Part shown: piece by piece, positions 21,113 to 34,867 of the stretch | Numbering within the stretch: the first letter of the stretch is position 1 | Layout: each line of letters opens with the position of its first letter | Source: Acidobacteriota bacterium | GTDB lineage: Bacteria; Acidobacteriota; UBA6911 | Reading direction: 5' to 3' | NCBI GenBank assembly: GCA_016934555.1 | Contig: JAFGSS010000084.1 | Span: 1 to 36,143, forward strand | DNA: 36,143 bases | Notes under the pieces: generated by a model | Told to the model about the DNA's origin: nothing | The model's database searches: none | The model's input: only the letters and a program-made list of their open reading frames with translations | Program-made: the position numbers and the translations under genes

Positions 21113-22291
21113 TCAGGCCCCCTCCTTCCCACCGACGAGCGACCCGCGCGTGATCGCCCGCGCGCCGAAGCGCCGCGCGATGTCGTCCTCCGCCTCGGCC
21201 AGTTTCCGGTCGCGTGACGGGGAGGGGGGGAAGAGCGTCGGCTGGATGCTTCCCGGCTCTAGGCCGGCGGCGGAAACGCCGAGGAGGCGCACCTTCATCC
21301 CGGCGCGCAACACCCGCTGCATCAGCTCGAGGGCCACCGGGAAGATGGCTTCCGCCGTGTCCACCGGCTCCGCGAGCGACCGGCGCCGGGTGGAGGTGGT
21401 GAAATCGGCCTGCCGGAATTTGAGCGTGACGGTGCGGGTACGGACGCCTTCGGCCCGCAGCCGCCGTGCCACCCTCCCGGAGAGGTCGAGCAGGGTGTTC
21501 CGGAGCCGCCCGGGGTCGTCGGTGTCCCGTTCGAAGGTGACCTCGTGGCCGATGCTGCGGCACCCGGGCCCGGCCGATACCGGCCGGTCATCGATCCCGC
21601 GTGCCAGGCGCCACAGGTGCTCCCCGTGGTCCCCCAGCAGGCGGGCGGCGTCCCCGGGGCCCAGGGCCGCCAGCTGCCCCACGGTCCTGACTCCCAGCGC
21701 CCTGAGCCGCGCTTCGGTTCTGGGACCGACTCCCCAGAGCCTGCCGACGTCGAGGGGAGCCAGGAACTCCCTTTCGCGCCCCGGCTCGACGACGACGAGA
21801 CCGTCCGGTTTCTCGAGGTCGGAAGCCACCTTGGCCACGAACTTGTTCGCCGCCACCCCCACCGAGGCCGTGAGGCCGAGTTCCCGCCCGATCCGCTCCC
21901 GGATCTTCCGGGCGATGACGTCTCCCGGCCCGAACAACCGGCGGCACCCGGTGACGTCCAGGAAGGCCTCGTCGACGCTCACCGGCTCCACCAGGTCGGT
22001 GAAATCGGACAGGATCCCCATGACGAGCCTTGAGACCCGGGCGTACTTGCGCATGTCCGGGGGAAGGTAGATCCCCCGGGGGCACAGTTTCCACGCCTCG
22101 GAAATCGGCTGCGCGGAATGGACCCCGAACTTCCGGGCTTCGTAGGAGCAGGTCGCCACGATCCCCCGGCCCCGCCCCCCCCTGGGGTCCGCCCCCACGA
22201 TGACGGGCCGGCCGCGGTACTCGGGGTGGTCGCGCTGTTCGACCGCCGCGTAGAAGGCGTCCATGTCGACGTGCAGAATCGTCCGCTCCAT
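21113..22291 (-). CDS. dinB: DNA polymerase IV, catalytically intact, 392 aa
   Basis: It is a Y-family translesion polymerase. The catalytic carboxylates are all present: Asp9 (HVDMDAFYAAVE) and Asp107/Glu108 (SVDEAFLDVTG); Tyr14 occupies the steric-gate position. The thumb HhH motif reads LWGVGPRTEARL. A beta-clamp binding motif QPTLF lies at 350-354, followed by about 38 further residues. The ATG at 22291 matches the family N-terminus; upstream extension to 22432 would be noncoding. No Shine-Dalgarno is seen and a -10-like TTTACT ends 6 nt before the ATG. Compare the inactive paralogue at 32934-34100. Confidence 0.96.
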   Translation of the reverse strand: MERTILHVDMDAFYAAVEQRDHPEYRGRPVIVGADPRGGRGRGIVATCSYEARKFGVHSAQPISEAWKLCPRGIYLPPDMRKYARVSRLVMGILSDFTDLVEPVSVDEAFLDVTGCRRLFGPGDVIARKIRERIGRELGLTASVGVAANKFVAKVASDLEKPDGLVVVEPGREREFLAPLDVGRLWGVGPRTEARLRALGVRTVGQLAALGPGDAARLLGDHGEHLWRLARGIDDRPVSAGPGCRSIGHEVTFERDTDDPGRLRNTLLDLSGRVARRLRAEGVRTRTVTLKFRQADFTTSTRRRSLAEPVDTAEAIFPVALELMQRVLRAGMKVRLLGVSAAGLEPGSIQPTLFPPSPSRDRKLAEAEDDIARRFGARAITRGSLVGGKEGA

Positions 22292-22297
22292 GCCGCA

Positions 22298-22327
22298 AGT
22301 AAACCACAGAACGGTGCGCCCCCACAA
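22298..22327 (-). promoter_or_regulatory. candidate promoter of dinB, leaderless geometry
   Basis: Minus-strand TTGTGG (22322-22327) and TTTACT (22298-22303) are 18 nt apart. The -10 ends 6 nt before the dinB ATG. The match to consensus is weak (three and four of six), and the geometry shared with three other repair genes is the main argument. Confidence 0.3.
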
Positions 22328-22463
22328 TTTTCCCGGGGCCCCGGCGCAAAAACCTGACGCGGGGCGGCCCGGATGCCGATCTGCCCTGTGTGGGGCCATC
22401 GTCCGGAATCTGTTGTATGATGTCCACTGCATCGGGTTACCACGGAGACATACGGGGATCGCT

Positions 22464-25874: not shown

Positions 25875-26951
25875 TCAGGACCGGAACCGGCAGAGCGGCG
25901 CCGCATCGAGGCAATCGGACAGGTGGCGGGCGTCCCGGACGCCGCAGCCCAGGCTCCGCTCCCAGACCAGACGGCTTTCCATGCAGAGATAGACCAGGAC
26001 CCCGGGAGCACACTCGTGGATCCAGGAGTTCATCTTCCGGTAGATCTCCTCCCGGACCGGCCGGAAGTAGCGCAGCTTCCCGTGATGGCCGGGGACGAAC
26101 TCGCCCCAGGGGAGGCGCGAACCGGGGTGGCGCTCGATGAGGCGCTCGCGCAGGTGGGGGGTGAAGCGCAGGGCGCCCAGGCTGATCCACGCCACGTCGC
26201 CGGGGTCGACGACGGAAAAGATCATCCGGACGACCTCGCGGTACTCCTCCTCCCAGCCTTCGTAGTGCACTATCGGGTCGAAGTGAAAACCGATCCGGTA
26301 GCCCCAGCGCCGGCAGCGGTCGGCGGCGGCGAGGCGCTCCTCGAGCGTCGCCGCGCAGGCCTCCTCCGAGCGGCAGATGCGGCGCGAGTTCATCGACCAG
26401 GAGACCACCGTGCGGCCGCCGTGCTCGAGGCCCTCGAGGTTCGCGACCCGGTCCGATTTGGTCTTGAGTTCGAGGATGCCGTTCGGCAGCCGGGCGAAGA
26501 AAGGGACCACCCGCCGGGAATAGCCCGTAATGGGGTCCAGGGCAAGGGAATCCGCCAGCTCGCCGGTGCCGATCCGGAAGGTCCGGTCCGGGGATTCGGC
26601 CAGCGTCCGGCCGATGTCCCCCAGGAAGTCCTCGATGTTGGTGCAGACGACGATCCCGCTCCCATCGAGGTAGGACTGCAGCACGCAGTAGGTGCACCCG
26701 AAGTGGCAGTTCCAGGCGTAGCTGGCGATGAAATAGTTGCAGCACATCTCCGCCCCGGATCCCTGGCACTGTTTCAGGAACTTGCCCCTGTGGCGCGCGA
26801 GCACCAGCGTATCGCGGGACGCGGAGACCCCGCCGGCGTCCTCCACCGTCCGGCGGGGGACCCCCGGGAGGTTCCGGAGGATATCGGCGGTGGCGCTGTC
26901 GCCCCACGATCCGGCTTCGACGATCACTTCCCCGGGGCGATACTCCATCAT
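25875..26951 (-). CDS. SPL-family radical SAM protein, 358 aa
   Basis: It is related to spore photoproduct lyase, which reverses UV-induced thymine lesions with a 5'-deoxyadenosyl radical. The radical SAM triad is Cys82, Cys86 and Cys89 ([12 protein letters not shown]), with Tyr88 as in SplB. Cys103 (VVCTNIEDF) falls where the H-donor cysteine of Bacillus SplB (ACTSD) would align by eye, and [14 protein letters not shown] matches the SplB core. Extra cysteines upstream (62, 70 and 71) mark a subfamily found outside spore formers. The ATG overlaps the stop of the ParB-like gene by 4 nt (ATGA) and has GGAGGGGGAG ahead of it, so the two proteins are made together. Whether the substrate is DNA is unknown; a sporulation role is unlikely in this organism. 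Confidence 0.88.
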
Positions 26952-27919
26952 GGGGTCTCCCCCTCCACCTCGAACAGTTCCTCCAGCCCGGGCGAACGGG
27001 CCGCCCGCTCGAGCTCCCCCGCCAGCTCCCGGAAGCGCGCCGCGTCGGGGGCCGAAAACTCGACGCGGATATCGGCCGTTTCGAAATAGGGGTGCGGCGC
27101 GAGCCGGATCGACCCGGGGAGGCCGAGCGCCCGTTCCCGCCGCCGGAAACGGTCCCGGGCCCGTGTCAGCCGGGGATGGCGCAGGCGATAGAGCGCCTCG
27201 TGCAGCCGCTCCCCCTTCTGGGAGGGGGAGAGCGAGGGATCCTCCAGGACCGCGGCAACCTCCTTTCCGTCCAGCGGGGCGCCCCAGGGTGCGCCGTCCC
27301 TGGCCGCCAGTTCCCCCAGCAGCCCGAGGACCTGCCGCTGCAGGCTGGCGCTCAGGCGGACGCGCTCCACGAGCAGCGAGAAACGCTCCTGCAGCGGCGG
27401 CGTCCTTTTTGCCAGCGCTTCCACGCTCTGCTGCGCCAGGACCCCCCCGGCCAGGCAGCGGCGCAGTCCGGGGCACGCCCGGTCGATCAGGAGCTGGGAT
27501 TGCAGGGCCTCTTCGCGCGGGGGCAGGTCCAGGAGCGGGAGATAGTCCCGGACGATCCTCTCCCGCGGCAGGCCGGTCTCGACGAGCTTGCAGAGCGCGC
27601 GCGCCCGCTCGAGCGGTTCCAGTCGCCGGGTCGCGAGGTTGTCCCGCAGGGCGAATTCCAGGGGGTGCAGGGGGGAAAAATCGGCTTCGCCCAGGATGCG
27701 GGCCGGGACCGACTCCCGGCCGAGTCGCCGGGTGGCGTGGAGCCTGCGGAACCCGCACACGATCGTCAGGCGCCCGCCGCGCTCGAGCAGGACCACCGGG
27801 TTCAACTGGCCTAGTTCACGGAGCGACCGGATGAGGGGGGGCGGCTCCAGCCCCTCGCTGACCCTGCATTCCTCGTTCTCCAGATCGATGTCCCGGACGG
27901 GCGTGTCGGCGATGTTCAT
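26948..27919 (-). CDS. ParB-like protein with N-terminal ParB/Srx domain, 323 aa
   Basis: The N-terminal domain has the ParB signature: SLRELGQLNPVVL (32-44), CGFRRLHATRRLG (55-67, the GERRxxA nucleotide-binding motif with Phe replacing Glu), and LRDNLATRRLEPLERARAL (91-109). A helical region resembling the ParB HTH follows (about 110-190). The C-terminal 130 residues are basic then acidic and resemble nothing I know. It is not the chromosomal segregation ParB by context: there is no parA, and the partner is a radical SAM enzyme. In this family the domain can bind CTP, ATP or ADP, and the roles range from DNA clamp to kinase. The ATG at 27919 has no ribosome-binding site and lies 6 nt after a -10-like TATGCT. 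Confidence 0.85.
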   Translation of the reverse strand: MNIADTPVRDIDLENEECRVSEGLEPPPLIRSLRELGQLNPVVLLERGGRLTIVCGFRRLHATRRLGRESVPARILGEADFSPLHPLEFALRDNLATRRLEPLERARALCKLVETGLPRERIVRDYLPLLDLPPREEALQSQLLIDRACPGLRRCLAGGVLAQQSVEALAKRTPPLQERFSLLVERVRLSASLQRQVLGLLGELAARDGAPWGAPLDGKEVAAVLEDPSLSPSQKGERLHEALYRLRHPRLTRARDRFRRRERALGLPGSIRLAPHPYFETADIRVEFSAPDAARFRELAGELERAARSPGLEELFEVEGETP

Positions 27920-27925
27920 GCCGGA

Positions 27926-27955
27926 AGCATATCGGAACCGGGCGGGGGTTCACAA
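27926..27955 (-). promoter_or_regulatory. candidate promoter of the parB-SPL pair, leaderless geometry
   Basis: Minus-strand TTGTGA (27950-27955) and TATGCT (27926-27931) are 18 nt apart, each matching four of six consensus bases. The -10 ends 6 nt before the ATG at 27919, predicting a leaderless transcript. Confidence 0.4.
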
Positions 27956-29949: not shown

Positions 29950-32925
29950 CTAAAGAAACCGCACCGAGTCGACGGCGAGCGTGACCGCGCCGAACTCCTC
30001 CTGGACCGTGCCGCCGAGCAGGTAGGGGCGGGAACGGTTCAGCATGTGGCAGAAACGGGCGTAGGCTTCCGGAAAGAAGACGGTTTCGTACAGGGCGCTG
30101 GTGTCCTCGAAACTGATGAACTCCATCGGCAGGTCGTCCCGGGTGGTGATGATTTTCCCCGTCACCCACCAGCCCGCCGTGGTCACCCGCTTCCCCGCAT
30201 GTTTCGCGAGATCGGCCCCCCGCACGCATCCGCACCGCGACAGCGGGCGCGCGTAGAGGGCGAGCGGGTGGCGGCTGAGGAGGAAACCGAGCGTCTCCAG
30301 TTCGTGCTCCAGGATGGCGCGGGGGGGGTATTGCGGCACCCGCGGGGGCTCCGCCGGGGGCAGGTCCTCGAAAAGCGAGCGCTCCCCCGGCCGGCGCGCC
30401 GCGCGCGTTTCCTGCCGGAGGAGCGCCTTCCAGATCATTTCGGGCCGGGTGGCGCCACCGGAGATGCCGTCCATGGCGCCGGCCTTGACGAGGACCTTCA
30501 CGTCCGCCATATCGATCGGGACGCGGCGGAAAAAATCCTCCAGCGACCGGAACGGCCCCTCGCGGCGCGCCTCGAGGACGGCCTCGAGCGCCGCCCGGCC
30601 GAGCCCCTTGAGCTGCATCAGCCCGACGCGCAGCACCCGGCCCTTGCCCCGGTACTCCCGCCCGCTTTCGTTGACGTCCGGGGGCCGCACCTCGAGCCCC
30701 ATCCTGCGGGCTTCGGACACGTAGGCGAAGGCCGAATAGTACCCTCCCCCGTTGGTGAGCACCGCGGCCATGAACTCGGCCGGGTAATGGGCCCGCAGGT
30801 AGCAGGACTTGTAGGAAACCAGGGCGTAGGATGCCGAATGCGGCTTGCAGAACGAGTACCCGGAGAAGCTCAGGATCATCCCCCAGACCTCTTCCGCCGT
30901 CTGCGGGGAAACGCCGCGGGCGGCCGCACCGGAGAAGAACATCCCCCTGTAATCCTCGAGCTTCCTGCCCGCCCGCTTCTTTGAAAGGATCTTCCGGAGC
31001 AGGTCGGCATCGGACGCACCGAACCCCGCCATCGCCATCGCGATGCGCGAGACATCCTCCTGGTAGACCATGATGCCGTAAGTCTCCCGGAGGACTTCGT
31101 CCAGGATCGGGTGGAGCGACGTCCAGGCGCCGCCCCGCAACCGCCGGACATACTCGCGGATATACCGGTTGGCTGCCGGGCGGATGATGGAGCTGTGAAT
31201 CACCAGGTGGTCGAAATCGCCGGTGCCGCACTTCTGCTGCAGCTGCCGCATGGAGGGGGACTCCACGTAAAAAACCCCCAGGGTGTCCCCCCTGCGGATG
31301 AAGTCCCGGGTCCGGGCGTCGCCGGTGGGGTCCCAGCGCCCGTAGTCGATATCCACCCCGCAGTGCTCCCGGACGGCGGCGAGCGCGTCCCGGATCACCG
31401 CAAGCGAGCGGTTGCCCAGGAGGTCGATCTTGATCAGGCCCGCGTCTTCCGCCTGGTCCTTCTCCCACTGGATGATCGGGACCCCCTTGGGCGCGGTCTC
31501 CACCGGCACGTAGCGGTCGATGCGGTCGGGTACGATGACGACGCCGCCGCAGTGAACCGACAGGTGCCGGGGATAGCCGTCGAGCCGCACGGCCATGCGA
31601 AGGATCTCGGGCCAGGGGCCGCCCAGTTTCATGTCCTTGAAAACGGGGTGGTGGCGCACGGCGTCCTCGAGACGGCCGAGCGCCCAGTAATAGCCGATGC
31701 GCCGGGTGACCGCCCGGATCTCGGCCTCGGGGATGCCGTACACCCTGGCCACCTCCCGGACGGCCGCGCGCGCGCCGAAACCCACGTGGTTGGAAATCAT
31801 GGCCGCCCGCCCGGCCCCGTATTTCCGGAACACGTAATCGAGGATCCCGTCCCGCTCGTCCCACGGGAAATCGATGTCGATGTCGGGCGGGTCGCTGCGC
31901 CCCTCGTTGAGGAAGCGCTCGAAGAAAAGGTTGTGGGTGATCGGCTCCACGTGGGTGATCCCCAGGCAGTAGGAGACCAGGCTGGCCGCGGCCGACCCCC
32001 GGCCGCAGGTGCGCGCCGAGCGGCGGACGATGTCGCGCACGACCAGGAAATAGGGGGCGAACCCCTTCGATTCGATGATGCCCAGTTCGTGGTCCAGCCG
32101 CTTCAACACCGAATCGGAAAGCTCCCCGTAGCGGCGCTCGGCCCCCCGGTAGCACTCCTCCCGCAGGTACTCGAACGCGTCGGCGCCTTCGGGAAGGTCG
32201 CAGGAGGGGAACACCGGCTTGCCCATATCCAGGTCGGCCCGGCACGCGTCGGCGATGCGGGCGGCGTTGTCGAGGGCGCGGCCCAGGTGCGGGTAGCGGC
32301 GCTCCATCTCCGCCTCCGGCTTCAGCCAGCGGTCCTCCCCCGCCAGTTCCCCCGGCGGAACCCGGGACAGGGAGGTGTTCAGGTCGATGGCACGCAGCAA
32401 CCGGTGGAGCGCGTGATCGGACGGGTCGGCGAAATAGACGTCGTTGGCCGCCACGGGGGGGACGCCCGAGGCCCGGGAAAAATCGAGGAGCCCCGCTTCG
32501 GTCCGGGGATCGTCGAGCTCGACGTAGAGGCCCGAGGTCCCGTTCTGGCGGGCGAGCGCCCCCAGCAGCGGGACCTGGCTGCTGAGCACGACCAGGTTTT
32601 CCCGCTCCTCCATGAGGGCGCGGGAGAGGCGGAAGCCGGGCGCCCGGAGCCCGGAGATGATGCGGCAGAGCAGGGCATACCCCTCGCGGTTGCGCACGAG
32701 CAGCGTCGCCCGCTCCCCTTCCGCCCGCAGTTCCGCCCCTACGACGGGCTGCAGCCCCCGCCGGGCGGCGCATTGAAGGAACCGGACCAGCCCGTAGACG
32801 CCGTTGATGTCGGTCAGCCCGAGCGCCGGCATCCCCCGCTCCCGGGCCGCATCCACCAGGGCCTCGATGCTGCTGGCGCCGCGGCAGAAGGAGTAGTGGG
32901 AATGAACGTGAAGGTGGACAAACAA
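29950..32925 (-). CDS. dnaE2: error-prone DNA polymerase III alpha, DnaE2/ImuC type, 991 aa
   Basis: It is a C-family polymerase for lesion bypass. The N-terminal PHP domain opens with HLHVHSHYSFCRGAS; the later PHP motif reads LTDINGVYG, where replicative DnaE has LTDHN, so one metal-ligand histidine is lost, as in DnaE2. The catalytic aspartates are in PPDIDIDF (346-353) and LIKIDLLG (Asp501). The fingers, a helix-hairpin-helix segment (GLMQLKGLGRAAL) and an OB fold at the end are present; there is no tau-binding C-terminus. At 991 aa it is a little shorter than many DnaE2 proteins. The best start is a TTG at 32925, with GAGGG upstream and 8 nt after the ImuB-like stop, so it depends on upstream translation. 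It is the third gene of the DUF72-imuB-dnaE2 operon. Confidence 0.93.
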   Translation of the reverse strand: MFVHLHVHSHYSFCRGASSIEALVDAARERGMPALGLTDINGVYGLVRFLQCAARRGLQPVVGAELRAEGERATLLVRNREGYALLCRIISGLRAPGFRLSRALMEERENLVVLSSQVPLLGALARQNGTSGLYVELDDPRTEAGLLDFSRASGVPPVAANDVYFADPSDHALHRLLRAIDLNTSLSRVPPGELAGEDRWLKPEAEMERRYPHLGRALDNAARIADACRADLDMGKPVFPSCDLPEGADAFEYLREECYRGAERRYGELSDSVLKRLDHELGIIESKGFAPYFLVVRDIVRRSARTCGRGSAAASLVSYCLGITHVEPITHNLFFERFLNEGRSDPPDIDIDFPWDERDGILDYVFRKYGAGRAAMISNHVGFGARAAVREVARVYGIPEAEIRAVTRRIGYYWALGRLEDAVRHHPVFKDMKLGGPWPEILRMAVRLDGYPRHLSVHCGGVVIVPDRIDRYVPVETAPKGVPIIQWEKDQAEDAGLIKIDLLGNRSLAVIRDALAAVREHCGVDIDYGRWDPTGDARTRDFIRRGDTLGVFYVESPSMRQLQQKCGTGDFDHLVIHSSIIRPAANRYIREYVRRLRGGAWTSLHPILDEVLRETYGIMVYQEDVSRIAMAMAGFGASDADLLRKILSKKRAGRKLEDYRGMFFSGAAARGVSPQTAEEVWGMILSFSGYSFCKPHSASYALVSYKSCYLRAHYPAEFMAAVLTNGGGYYSAFAYVSEARRMGLEVRPPDVNESGREYRGKGRVLRVGLMQLKGLGRAALEAVLEARREGPFRSLEDFFRRVPIDMADVKVLVKAGAMDGISGGATRPEMIWKALLRQETRAARRPGERSLFEDLPPAEPPRVPQYPPRAILEHELETLGFLLSRHPLALYARPLSRCGCVRGADLAKHAGKRVTTAGWWVTGKIITTRDDLPMEFISFEDTSALYETVFFPEAYARFCHMLNRSRPYLLGGTVQEEFGAVTLAVDSVRFL

Positions 32926-32933
32926 AATTCCCT

Positions 32934-34100
32934 CTACCGCCCGACGGTCGATTGCGCCGCGGGGCGCAGGACGGGGCGGCCGTAGCGGGCGCGGAGGGTA
33001 TCGAGCGCCTGTTCGAGCCGCAGGCGGCGCGCGGGCCCCGGGTCCGCGAACAGGTCCATCTGCACCGGCCCCGCAAGGAGCGCCCCGAGCCGCAGGTGGA
33101 CGCTCCGCACGCGCGTGCGCCGGTCGAGCGCCCGGCCGAGCAGGGGGAGGGCCGCGGCGTACAGGGCGGCCGACGACTCGAGCGGCACGGCCGTCTGCAC
33201 CCCCCACGCCCCTTCCCCGTAGTCGGCGTAGCGGACCCGCACCTCCACCCGCCCGGCGCGCCGTCCCTCCCCGCGCAGCCGCTCCCCCGCCCGGTCGCAG
33301 AGATCGGCGAGCTCCCCTGCGAGCAGCGCGTCATCGTTCGAGTCTTCGCCCAGCGTCCTTTCCAGTTCCAGTGCCGGGGCCGAACGCGCCGGGACCACCG
33401 GGGTGCGGTCGATCCCCAGGGCCCGCTCGCGGAGCAGAAATCCGGGCCGGCCGAACGCCAAGACGAGATGTTCCAGCCTCATGGCGGCGACTTCGTGGAT
33501 GATGCGGATATTCAGTTCCCGGAACCGCTCCTCGGTCCGGGGCCCGACACCCGGGAGCAGCCGCACCGGCAGCGGGGAGAGAAAGGAACTCTCTTCCCCG
33601 TGCGGCACGTCCTGCAGCCCCGCCGTCCGCGTTACTTCCGTCGCGATCCGGCTGACCATTTTATTGGAGGCGATTCCGAGCGCGGCCTCGAGGCCCAGCC
33701 GCCGCAGGATCTCCCTGCGCGCTTTCCAGGCGGCGTCCCTCGGCGGCCCCCAGAGCCGGCCGGTCCCCGTGACGTCCAGGTAGGCGTGTCCGTACCCCGA
33801 GGGTTCGAGCACCGGGGAGTAGGCCGCCAGGATCCCGCATATCGCGCGGGAGGCCCGGAGGCAGAGGGGTTCGTTCGGCGGCAGCACGACCGTGTCCCGG
33901 CAGCAGCGCAGCGCCCGGGACAGAAGCATCCCCTTGCGGATCCCCGCCTGCCAGGCTTCCGGGGACAACGCCGTCACGACCGAGCGCGCCGCGGTGCGGG
34001 GCGCGACCACCACGGGGCGCCGGCGCAGTTCGGGGTGCACCACCCGTTCCACGGCCACGGGGAAAGACCGGACGGTCAGGTGGATGATTTCGCGGTCCAT
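32934..34100 (-). CDS. imuB: ImuB-like Y-family protein with lost catalytic residues, 388 aa
   Basis: The whole DinB fold can be followed (IIHLTVRSFPVAVE at the N-terminus, AYLDVTG, RLLPGVGPRTEERF in the thumb, a little finger), but the active site is destroyed. Where DinB has Asp9, Asp11 and Asp107-Glu108, this protein has Thr9, Arg11, Gly103 and His104. The steric-gate position is proline. A beta-clamp motif QMDLF is kept at 347-351. This is the hallmark of ImuB, the noncatalytic adaptor that brings DnaE2 to the clamp, and dnaE2 follows 8 nt downstream. Unlike classical cassettes there is no imuA or lexA next to it; a DUF72 gene overlaps its start by 25 nt instead. The tail after QMDLF resembles the tail of the active DinB in this window, so it may have evolved from a DinB paralogue. 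Confidence 0.88.
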   Translation of the reverse strand: MDREIIHLTVRSFPVAVERVVHPELRRRPVVVAPRTAARSVVTALSPEAWQAGIRKGMLLSRALRCCRDTVVLPPNEPLCLRASRAICGILAAYSPVLEPSGYGHAYLDVTGTGRLWGPPRDAAWKARREILRRLGLEAALGIASNKMVSRIATEVTRTAGLQDVPHGEESSFLSPLPVRLLPGVGPRTEERFRELNIRIIHEVAAMRLEHLVLAFGRPGFLLRERALGIDRTPVVPARSAPALELERTLGEDSNDDALLAGELADLCDRAGERLRGEGRRAGRVEVRVRYADYGEGAWGVQTAVPLESSAALYAAALPLLGRALDRRTRVRSVHLRLGALLAGPVQMDLFADPGPARRLRLEQALDTLRARYGRPVLRPAAQSTVGR

Positions 34101-34867
34101 GAGGGCACCCGTGCTTCCTTCGCCGTTGCGGCCAGAATGTCGATAAGCATGCGGGCGTTGACGGCCGCCTGCCCCCGCCAGGGGTTGTTCATGAACACCA
34201 GGACGCGCTCGCACTCCCCGTCGAGCCGCCGGAGCGCGGGGAGCGCCGATTCGAGTTCGGCGCGGCTGTAGGCGTAATCGTGTTCGCCCGACCCGTCCCC
34301 CCGCAGCCACCGCGACCGGCGCCGCCCCTGGAAGCGGACACAGGCCAGTTCCGGCGTGGTGGCGCGAAAAGCCCCGGGGCTTTCGACGCCGTCGACGCAC
34401 GCGAGCACGACACGGGAGGCGGCGAGGTGCCGGGCCGCCTGCGCCGAATGCCACCCGGCCGAACCGAACTCGGCGATCAGCCGGATCCCCTCGAGGGAGT
34501 CGCGCAGCCGGAGGAGACCCGAGAAATTGTCCCGCATGAACACGAACTCCGGCGGGAAACGGACCAGGACCCCGGCCAGCTGGCCGGTCTCTTTCAAAGG
34601 CCACAGGGCCCCCGCGAACCGGCGCGCCAGGCCGGGGTTGTCCAGGCGCAGCGGAGCCCGGAACACCAGGGGCAGGGCTCCGCGCGTTTCTTCCATAATC
34701 TCTTGAATTTCTTGAGCTTCCGGGATCCGGTAGCAGGTGAACCCAAGCTCGCAGCAGCCGAACCGCCGACTGTAGTAGCGCAGCCACTCCTTCGGGTCGA
34801 GGCCCTCGGGATAGAAAACCGGGGTCCAGTCGCGATATCGGAATCCACTTGTCCCCACCAGGATCAT
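34076..34867 (-). CDS. DUF72 (YecE-like) TIM-barrel protein, 263 aa
   Basis: Family features are the N-terminal VGTSGFRYRDWTPVFYPE, a YYSRRFGCCELGFTCYRIP segment, an internal FPPEFVFMRDN, the late CVRFQGRRRSRW, and VFMNNPWRGQAAVNA near the end. DUF72 proteins fold as TIM barrels; their biochemical role is not established, though a metal-dependent hydrolase or nuclease has been suspected. Here the gene leads the imuB-dnaE2 operon and its 3' end overlaps imuB by 25 nt, so it is made with the mutasome. The ATG at 34867 has no ribosome-binding site; a -10-like TATTTT ends 6 nt upstream, predicting a leaderless message. The chosen start is the only one that keeps the conserved first strand. Confidence 0.9.
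   Translation of the reverse strand: MILVGTSGFRYRDWTPVFYPEGLDPKEWLRYYSRRFGCCELGFTCYRIPEAQEIQEIMEETRGALPLVFRAPLRLDNPGLARRFAGALWPLKETGQLAGVLVRFPPEFVFMRDNFSGLLRLRDSLEGIRLIAEFGSAGWHSAQAARHLAASRVVLACVDGVESPGAFRATTPELACVRFQGRRRSRWLRGDGSGEHDYAYSRAELESALPALRRLDGECERVLVFMNNPWRGQAAVNARMLIDILAATAKEARVPSWTAKSST

Follow-up and report, generated by a model that had tools for sequence, protein, structure and literature searches.

SPL-type radical SAM enzymes are represented by SplB of B. subtilis and G. thermodenitrificans (PF20903, TIGR04070), which carry the CxxxCxxC motif and a hydrogen-donor cysteine, Cys141 in the former (Bsu) and Cys140 in the latter (Gt). The C141A variant of the canonical enzyme gives TpT-SO2- because no cysteine quenches the thymine radical (PMC3742179). 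The natural SPL of C. acetobutylicum, a spore lyase, has a conserved Cys74 on the side opposite the tyrosine, and the accessible part of that report mentions no ParB-like partner (PMC5368176). ParB/Spo0J, Noc, KorB and PadC have in common a ParB_N-type domain followed by an HTH domain. The ParB fold also occurs outside parAB, in the orphan ParB-CTPase-fold proteins (Kaljevic et al. 2025, PMC12704722), and the words radical, photo and SPL do not occur in the main text of that study. A search of the open-licence literature for papers joining SPL with ParB or with a glycosyltransferase returned none.

Here we describe a radical DNA-chemistry fold that is tied, across two phyla, to a ParB-type DNA-binding fold and to a glycosyltransferase. 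The SPL-like and ParB-like families are both divergent variants of known folds, and their combination is undescribed in the literature that could be searched. The ParB-like protein shares with the orphan proteins a ParB fold outside parAB, but differs from them in that its partner is an unfused, co-occurring enzyme.

A coupled gene pair in an Acidobacteriota genome

The window, that is, the whole stretch of 36,143 nucleotides of Acidobacteriota DNA that was analyzed, encodes on its minus strand a ParB-like protein of 323 amino acids (P0001, 26948..27919) and an SPL-like radical SAM protein of 358 amino acids (P0002, 25875..26951). As the preliminary description had noted, the stop of the former and the start of the latter overlap by 4 nucleotides (ATGA, 26948..26951, minus strand), and both open reading frames are intact. 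Within this family, four further loci (L009, L011, L015 and L017) show the overlap as well. A shared promoter had also been claimed; the consensus scan found none, and what can be seen is a promoter-like TTGTGA-16-GATATG element immediately ahead of the start codon of the ParB-like gene (27928..27955, minus strand), which is kept in three close relatives. A palindromic operator upstream of the pair was looked for within the window and rejected. In agreement with the earlier reading, no parA is present among the ORFs listed for 22-32 kb of the window, and the chromosomal-ParB-type match of the same genome lies elsewhere (C159).

By reading of the ORFs, the neighbors of the pair encode a copper-type P-ATPase, galE, a TPR protein, a metallo-beta-lactamase-fold protein and a DnaE2-type polymerase, and these genes are common mainly to close relatives. 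The DnaE2-type polymerase and an ImuB/Pol IV-like ORF upstream form a mutasome-like cluster (29950-34400, minus strand), and a separate DinB ORF lies near the pair (21113-22432, minus strand). Matches to dnaE2 and dinB are also found in the near relative L002/L121, and to dinB in L117. We discarded a general linkage of the pair to a mutasome, which is seen in this genome and otherwise only in L002/L121. We also discarded a mobile or phage origin: the ParB-like protein has no plasmid match, and the plasmid and phage matches of the SPL are only partial, with less than 60% identity.

Joint distribution of the ParB-like, SPL-like and GT2 genes

We followed the two genes in 297 genomes of Acidobacteriota and in 247 genomes of Desulfobacterota, the latter centered on the Desulfobulbus locus L004. 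Full-length members of the ParB-like family match its profile to about residue 318, while chromosomal ParB proteins match mostly the first half. In the first ParB-like loci, the SPL-like gene lies directly downstream on the same strand, with the exception of L010 and L033. Among the 297 Acidobacteriota genomes, 49 carry the ParB-like gene and 61 the SPL-like gene, and all 49 ParB-like carriers have both. Reading of the coordinates places the two genes side by side in 46 of these 49 pairs (the others are G018, G052 and G089). Two near-complete genomes of the window's own genus (G003 and G004) have neither gene, and the same alternation is seen between genera of one family: both genes are present in g33 and absent from g45 in family f26, and present in g115 and absent from g69 in family f48. 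Within Acidobacteriota families, the ParB-like and SPL-like genes are thus present or absent as a pair.

In Desulfobacterota, both genes occur in 125 genomes, only the ParB-like gene in 6, only the SPL-like gene in 14 and neither in 102 (Fisher P-value 1.6e-45, which ignores shared ancestry). Counted by eye, the pair is adjacent in around 80 of the 125 carriers, three of them with reversed order, and unlinked in around 45. Contig ends interrupt three of the six ParB-like-only genomes, and in a fourth (G437) the start of an SPL-like gene is found at the contig end. Conversely, in 8 of the 14 SPL-like-only genomes an initially missed ParB-like gene adjoins the SPL-like gene; seven of these are short, and the eighth, in G517, is divergent. 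Including them raises the count to 133 genomes with both genes and leaves 6 with each one alone. The preliminary description had proposed a conserved and functionally coupled pair without a parA neighbor, and the neighborhood count bears this out: the pair is conserved, in 49 out of 49 ParB-like carriers in Acidobacteriota and in 125 genomes against 6 and 14 in Desulfobacterota. These counts rule out chance neighbors in both phyla. The phylogenetic profiles are tight enough for the link to be testable in any carrier.

A few loci depart from the common arrangement. Eight ParB-like genes that are not directly followed by an SPL-like gene have a SAICAR synthase (purC-like) gene immediately upstream (L230, L232, L240, L241, L244, L228, L252 and L178). 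Three loci of Acidobacteriota family f35 (L132, L134 and L135) encode SPL-like proteins that bear the Cys62/Glu131 signature described below, lack the N-terminal 55 residues and have no ParB-like neighbor. An apparent ParB-SPL or other fusion at L100 was traced to a masked stretch.

Clustering of the neighboring genes revealed a third partner, which is found in most lineages and was left out of the earlier interpretation. A single family of GT2 glycosyltransferases (44 ORFs) immediately precedes the ParB-like gene on its strand, or the SPL-like gene where the ParB-like gene is elsewhere. The gene order is GT2 - ParB-like - SPL-like, and successive genes overlap or are separated by short gaps. 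The profile of this family (A8) is specific, with best matches at E < 1e-83 followed by a gap to about 1e-69. In Desulfobacterota, 139 genomes carry the GT2 gene. The SPL-like gene accompanies it in 130 and is missing from 9, and a further 9 genomes bear the SPL-like gene only. All three genes are found in 126 genomes, and around 94% of the carriers in this phylum have the GT2 gene, linked or unlinked. The three genes can lie apart on one contig, by up to hundreds of kilobases (G404, G332 and G432); in G404 they map at 610 kb (GT2), 1034 kb (ParB-like) and 1149 kb (SPL-like). In Acidobacteriota, 41 of the 42 GT2 genomes carry the SPL-like gene, one has GT2 only and 20 have the SPL-like gene only, and the GT2 gene is mostly located away from the pair. 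The window's own family lacks the GT2 subfamily. The conserved set thus consists of an SPL-fold radical SAM enzyme, a ParB-like partner and, in most lineages, one GT2 subfamily.

Divergence of the two proteins from SPL and ParB

The SPL-like protein scores 92.3 bits against the Pfam SPL model (cut-off 27) and 105.4 bits against the TIGR04070 equivalog, below the 400-bit cut-off of the latter. Its AF2 model (pLDDT 93.4) is closest to the solved structure of the G. thermodenitrificans SPL (Z 37, 316 aligned residues, 1.9 Å), and the next family follows at Z 15.5. The radical SAM cysteines 82, 86 and 89 and Tyr88, already recognized in the preliminary description, are invariant in the 49 relatives of alignment A6 (codons at 26685..26708, minus strand); Tyr88, Asp134, Lys165 and Pro226 are all shared with SplB. 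The earlier assignment of Cys103 (codon at 26643..26645, minus strand) as the hydrogen donor does not hold. This residue is variable, being Cys in 5 of the 49 relatives, and two alignments place Gt Cys140/Bsu Cys141 at Glu131 of a GTGE motif (codon at 26559..26561, minus strand). Both alignments also match Cys62 (codon at 26766..26768, minus strand) to Gt residue 76; Gt numbers were counted along the alignments as the chain index minus 27 and fixed by Cys90/94/97. In alignment A6, Glu131 and Cys62 are each conserved in 46 of the 49 relatives, and Cys71 and Cys323 in 48. The exceptions at positions 62 and 131 are L138-L140, which are SPLs without a ParB-like neighbor: Cys62 is present in 46 out of 46 members of the ParB-associated family and absent from the other SPL groups that we examined.

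The family therefore has a Glu in place of the hydrogen-donor Cys of SplB, and further differs from SplB in the additional Cys62, Cys71 and Cys323, in GTGExxDS, His223 and Asp225, and in its ParB-like and GT2 partners. The relay tyrosine (Bsu Tyr99/Gt Tyr98) is usually absent too; the window protein has Val90 in this column, and 9 of the 49 relatives have Tyr. Of 38 near-invariant positions in the 46 core members, only 11 are common to canonical SPL. The position of Cys62 recalls two known enzymes. The engineered C140A/S76C SPL (4rh0) has its cysteine at the site of Cys62, and Cys74 of the C. acetobutylicum SPL faces the tyrosine from the opposite side (PMC5368176); this residue presumably corresponds to Gt residue 76. 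Both cases suggest that a Cys donor could act from the other side, although the remaining pocket differs. Cys62, Cys71 and Cys323 were also considered as ligands of a candidate auxiliary Fe-S cluster. The family is thus a natural SPL-like one that has Glu at the hydrogen-donor position and its cysteine at the engineered S76C site instead. This Glu131/Cys62 arrangement makes the choice of an SPL-type enzyme between repair and functionalization directly testable.

These residues bear on whether the enzyme could be a direct-reversal repair enzyme, which would split a dimeric or cross-linked pyrimidine lesion with Cys62 as hydrogen donor, the ParB-like protein recruiting it to damage and the GT2 being incidental or separate. 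The close match to the SPL fold and the location of Cys62 at the S76C site, comparable to Cys74 in C. acetobutylicum, are consistent with such an activity, as are the DNA-binding architecture of ParB, the GT2-free genomes of the window's family and the mutasome-like dnaE2 cluster 2-6 kb away in this genome. The scarcity of the relay tyrosine, the family-invariant residues that are mostly unlike those of canonical SPL, the GT2 gene that accompanies nearly all Desulfobacterota carriers and the restriction of the mutasome neighborhood to one other near relative all argue against it. Overall, we regard direct repair as possible but rather unlikely.

The ParB-like protein consists of a ParB_N-type domain (residues 1-100, approximately), an HTH region (about 100-205) and a C-terminal alpha-beta-beta-alpha domain (about 249-316), a topology that we take to resemble that of ParB dimerization domains. 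Its AF2 model (pLDDT 94.8) retrieves ParB, Noc and KorB in Foldseek (best E 1.8e-8). VIA-align gives KorB at Z 11.7 (195 aligned residues, rmsd 5.9), PadC at Z 11.4 (95 aligned, 2.0 Å) and, for the N-terminal domain, free serine kinase/SbnI at Z of about 9 over 72 residues. PDB profile matches extend to position 190-226 and hence cover the HTH region. Taken alone, the sequence falls below the cut-offs of Pfam ParB_N (20.2 versus 26.3) and TIGR00180 (31.6 versus 58.45 bits); 29 of 37 relatives match PF02195 and 5 of 37 match PF17762 (E up to 0.1).

Both motifs that had been read in the protein, GxRRxxA with Phe for Glu and the DNLATRRLEPLERARA box, are indeed present. None of the 37 relatives retains the catalytic Glu of GERR (they have F, W, Y, A or H instead), and the catalytic Gln column of box I retains Gln in 6 of 37, while Arg58 and Arg59 are mostly kept. 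This loss makes CTP hydrolysis by the known mechanism unlikely and, judging from these residues, the family has probably lost canonical CTP hydrolysis. In addition, the seven short Desulfobacterota forms match the profile from about residue 145 onward and have no ParB_N match, indicating that the C-terminal half is constant and the nucleotide domain dispensable in some lineages. Substituted catalytic residues and the seven loci without ParB_N speak against the nucleotide-switched clamp that the preliminary description had envisaged. Together with the missing parA neighbor, the same features distinguish the family from ParB/Spo0J, Noc, KorB and PadC. Nucleotide binding by the protein is not predictable from sequence: according to a section heading of the orphan ParB study (PMC12704722), sequence analysis and AlphaFold3 both fail to give a reliable prediction of nucleotide specificity.

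The presence of the repressor KorB among the closest folds raises the question of whether the ParB-like protein is a mere transcription regulator of the KorB/VirB type, controlling the SPL-like and other genes with no physical or catalytic partnership. Coupled genes would suit autoregulation. However, the ParB-like gene is often unlinked yet retained in Desulfobacterota, short forms without ParB_N still adjoin the SPL-like gene, and the window pair has no upstream palindrome, all of which make this role very unlikely.

A possible modification pathway and related SPL-like groups

Since the two proteins travel together, usually with the GT2, they look like parts of one undescribed, probably nucleic-acid-acting pathway. 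The reading that we prefer, tentatively, is a base modification in which a nucleic-acid-acting radical SAM enzyme has a ParB-like docking partner and the GT2 acts in the same pathway. The SPL-like enzyme would generate a 5'-deoxyadenosyl radical, whose target, bound in the SPL-type pocket, would be a nucleotide or a base of a nucleic acid. With Glu131 replacing the canonical donor, Cys62 on the opposite side would be the likely hydrogen-donor or radical-quenching residue. The ParB-like protein may serve as a dedicated docking or targeting subunit with ParB-type DNA-binding architecture, whose residues from about 145 to 320, kept everywhere, would make the contact to the SPL or to DNA. The GT2 may, for example, add a sugar to the radical product.

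A nucleic-acid substrate is suggested by the association of the SPL fold with a ParB-type DNA-binding fold. Most lineages with the pair also have the GT2, and modification hence fits at least as well as repair; if the GT2 acts on the radical product as proposed, modification becomes somewhat more likely than the repair of UV lesions. We accordingly place nucleic-acid modification slightly ahead of lesion repair, and small-molecule nucleoside chemistry third. Counting against modification, the GT2, which the window's family lacks, could instead belong to a small-molecule or envelope pathway, and a related SPL group with a PNP-type nucleosidase, in some loci with a GT2 upstream, also fits small-molecule nucleoside chemistry. 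A more specific three-protein hypermodification, in which the SPL-type enzyme functionalizes a pyrimidine (at the methyl group of thymine, for example), a non-hydrolyzing ParB-like clamp places it on DNA and the GT2 glycosylates the product, seems doubtful. If true, it would parallel base J synthesis without depending on oxygen.

Other SPL-like proteins have dedicated neighbor genes of their own. In five loci (L142, L143, L259, L260 and L141), a PNP-type nucleosidase gene lies directly upstream of the SPL-like gene, and these SPL-like genes encode Tyr at the hydrogen-donor column. Three of them (L142, L143 and L259) have a GT2 of the same subfamily further upstream, and L142 has an SDR gene downstream. 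The C-terminus of the nucleosidase bears a motif that looks similar to the ParB-like C-terminus, with an hhalign probability of 3.8%. A third SPL-like group is found in Desulfobacterota (L253-L258); in L256 the SPL-like gene adjoins a TcmP three-Cys-motif partner protein (TIGR04474, 4e-62). Both kinds of pair resemble ours in coupling an SPL-like radical SAM protein with a dedicated neighbor, but their signature residues differ from those of the ParB-linked group. In the tree, the canonical, TcmP-linked and nucleosidase-linked SPLs make up three clades, none of which includes ParB-linked sequences; the last of the three is sister to the branch that contains the ParB-linked ones (support 97/84, with long branches flagged).

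Because the nucleosidase takes the place of the ParB-like protein in GT2 - X - SPL clusters (L142, L143 and L259), we also weighed a small-molecule pathway. Here the SPL-like enzyme, the GT2 and a nucleotide-binding partner, either a ParB fold or a PNP-type nucleosidase, would make a glycosylated nucleoside-derived metabolite or cofactor, and the ParB fold would bind a nucleotide or act as an enzyme, as it does in SbnI/SerK. The SDR gene downstream in some loci, the match of the ParB-like N-terminal domain to free serine kinase/SbnI and the sister position of the nucleosidase-linked SPLs point in this direction. Set against them, the ParB-like protein keeps its HTH region and a further C-terminal domain, and the short forms drop the nucleotide domain and retain the C-terminal part. 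We consider such a pathway unlikely.

Two further neighborhoods were observed among the SPL-like groups. Helicase-, ATPase- and regulator-like ORFs lie near some of the L253-L258 loci and suggest a defence-type neighborhood. In Acidobacteriota family f37, divergent SPL-like proteins with GTGQ for GTGE (L138 and L139) are encoded beside ferrochelatase- and haem-biosynthesis-type genes.
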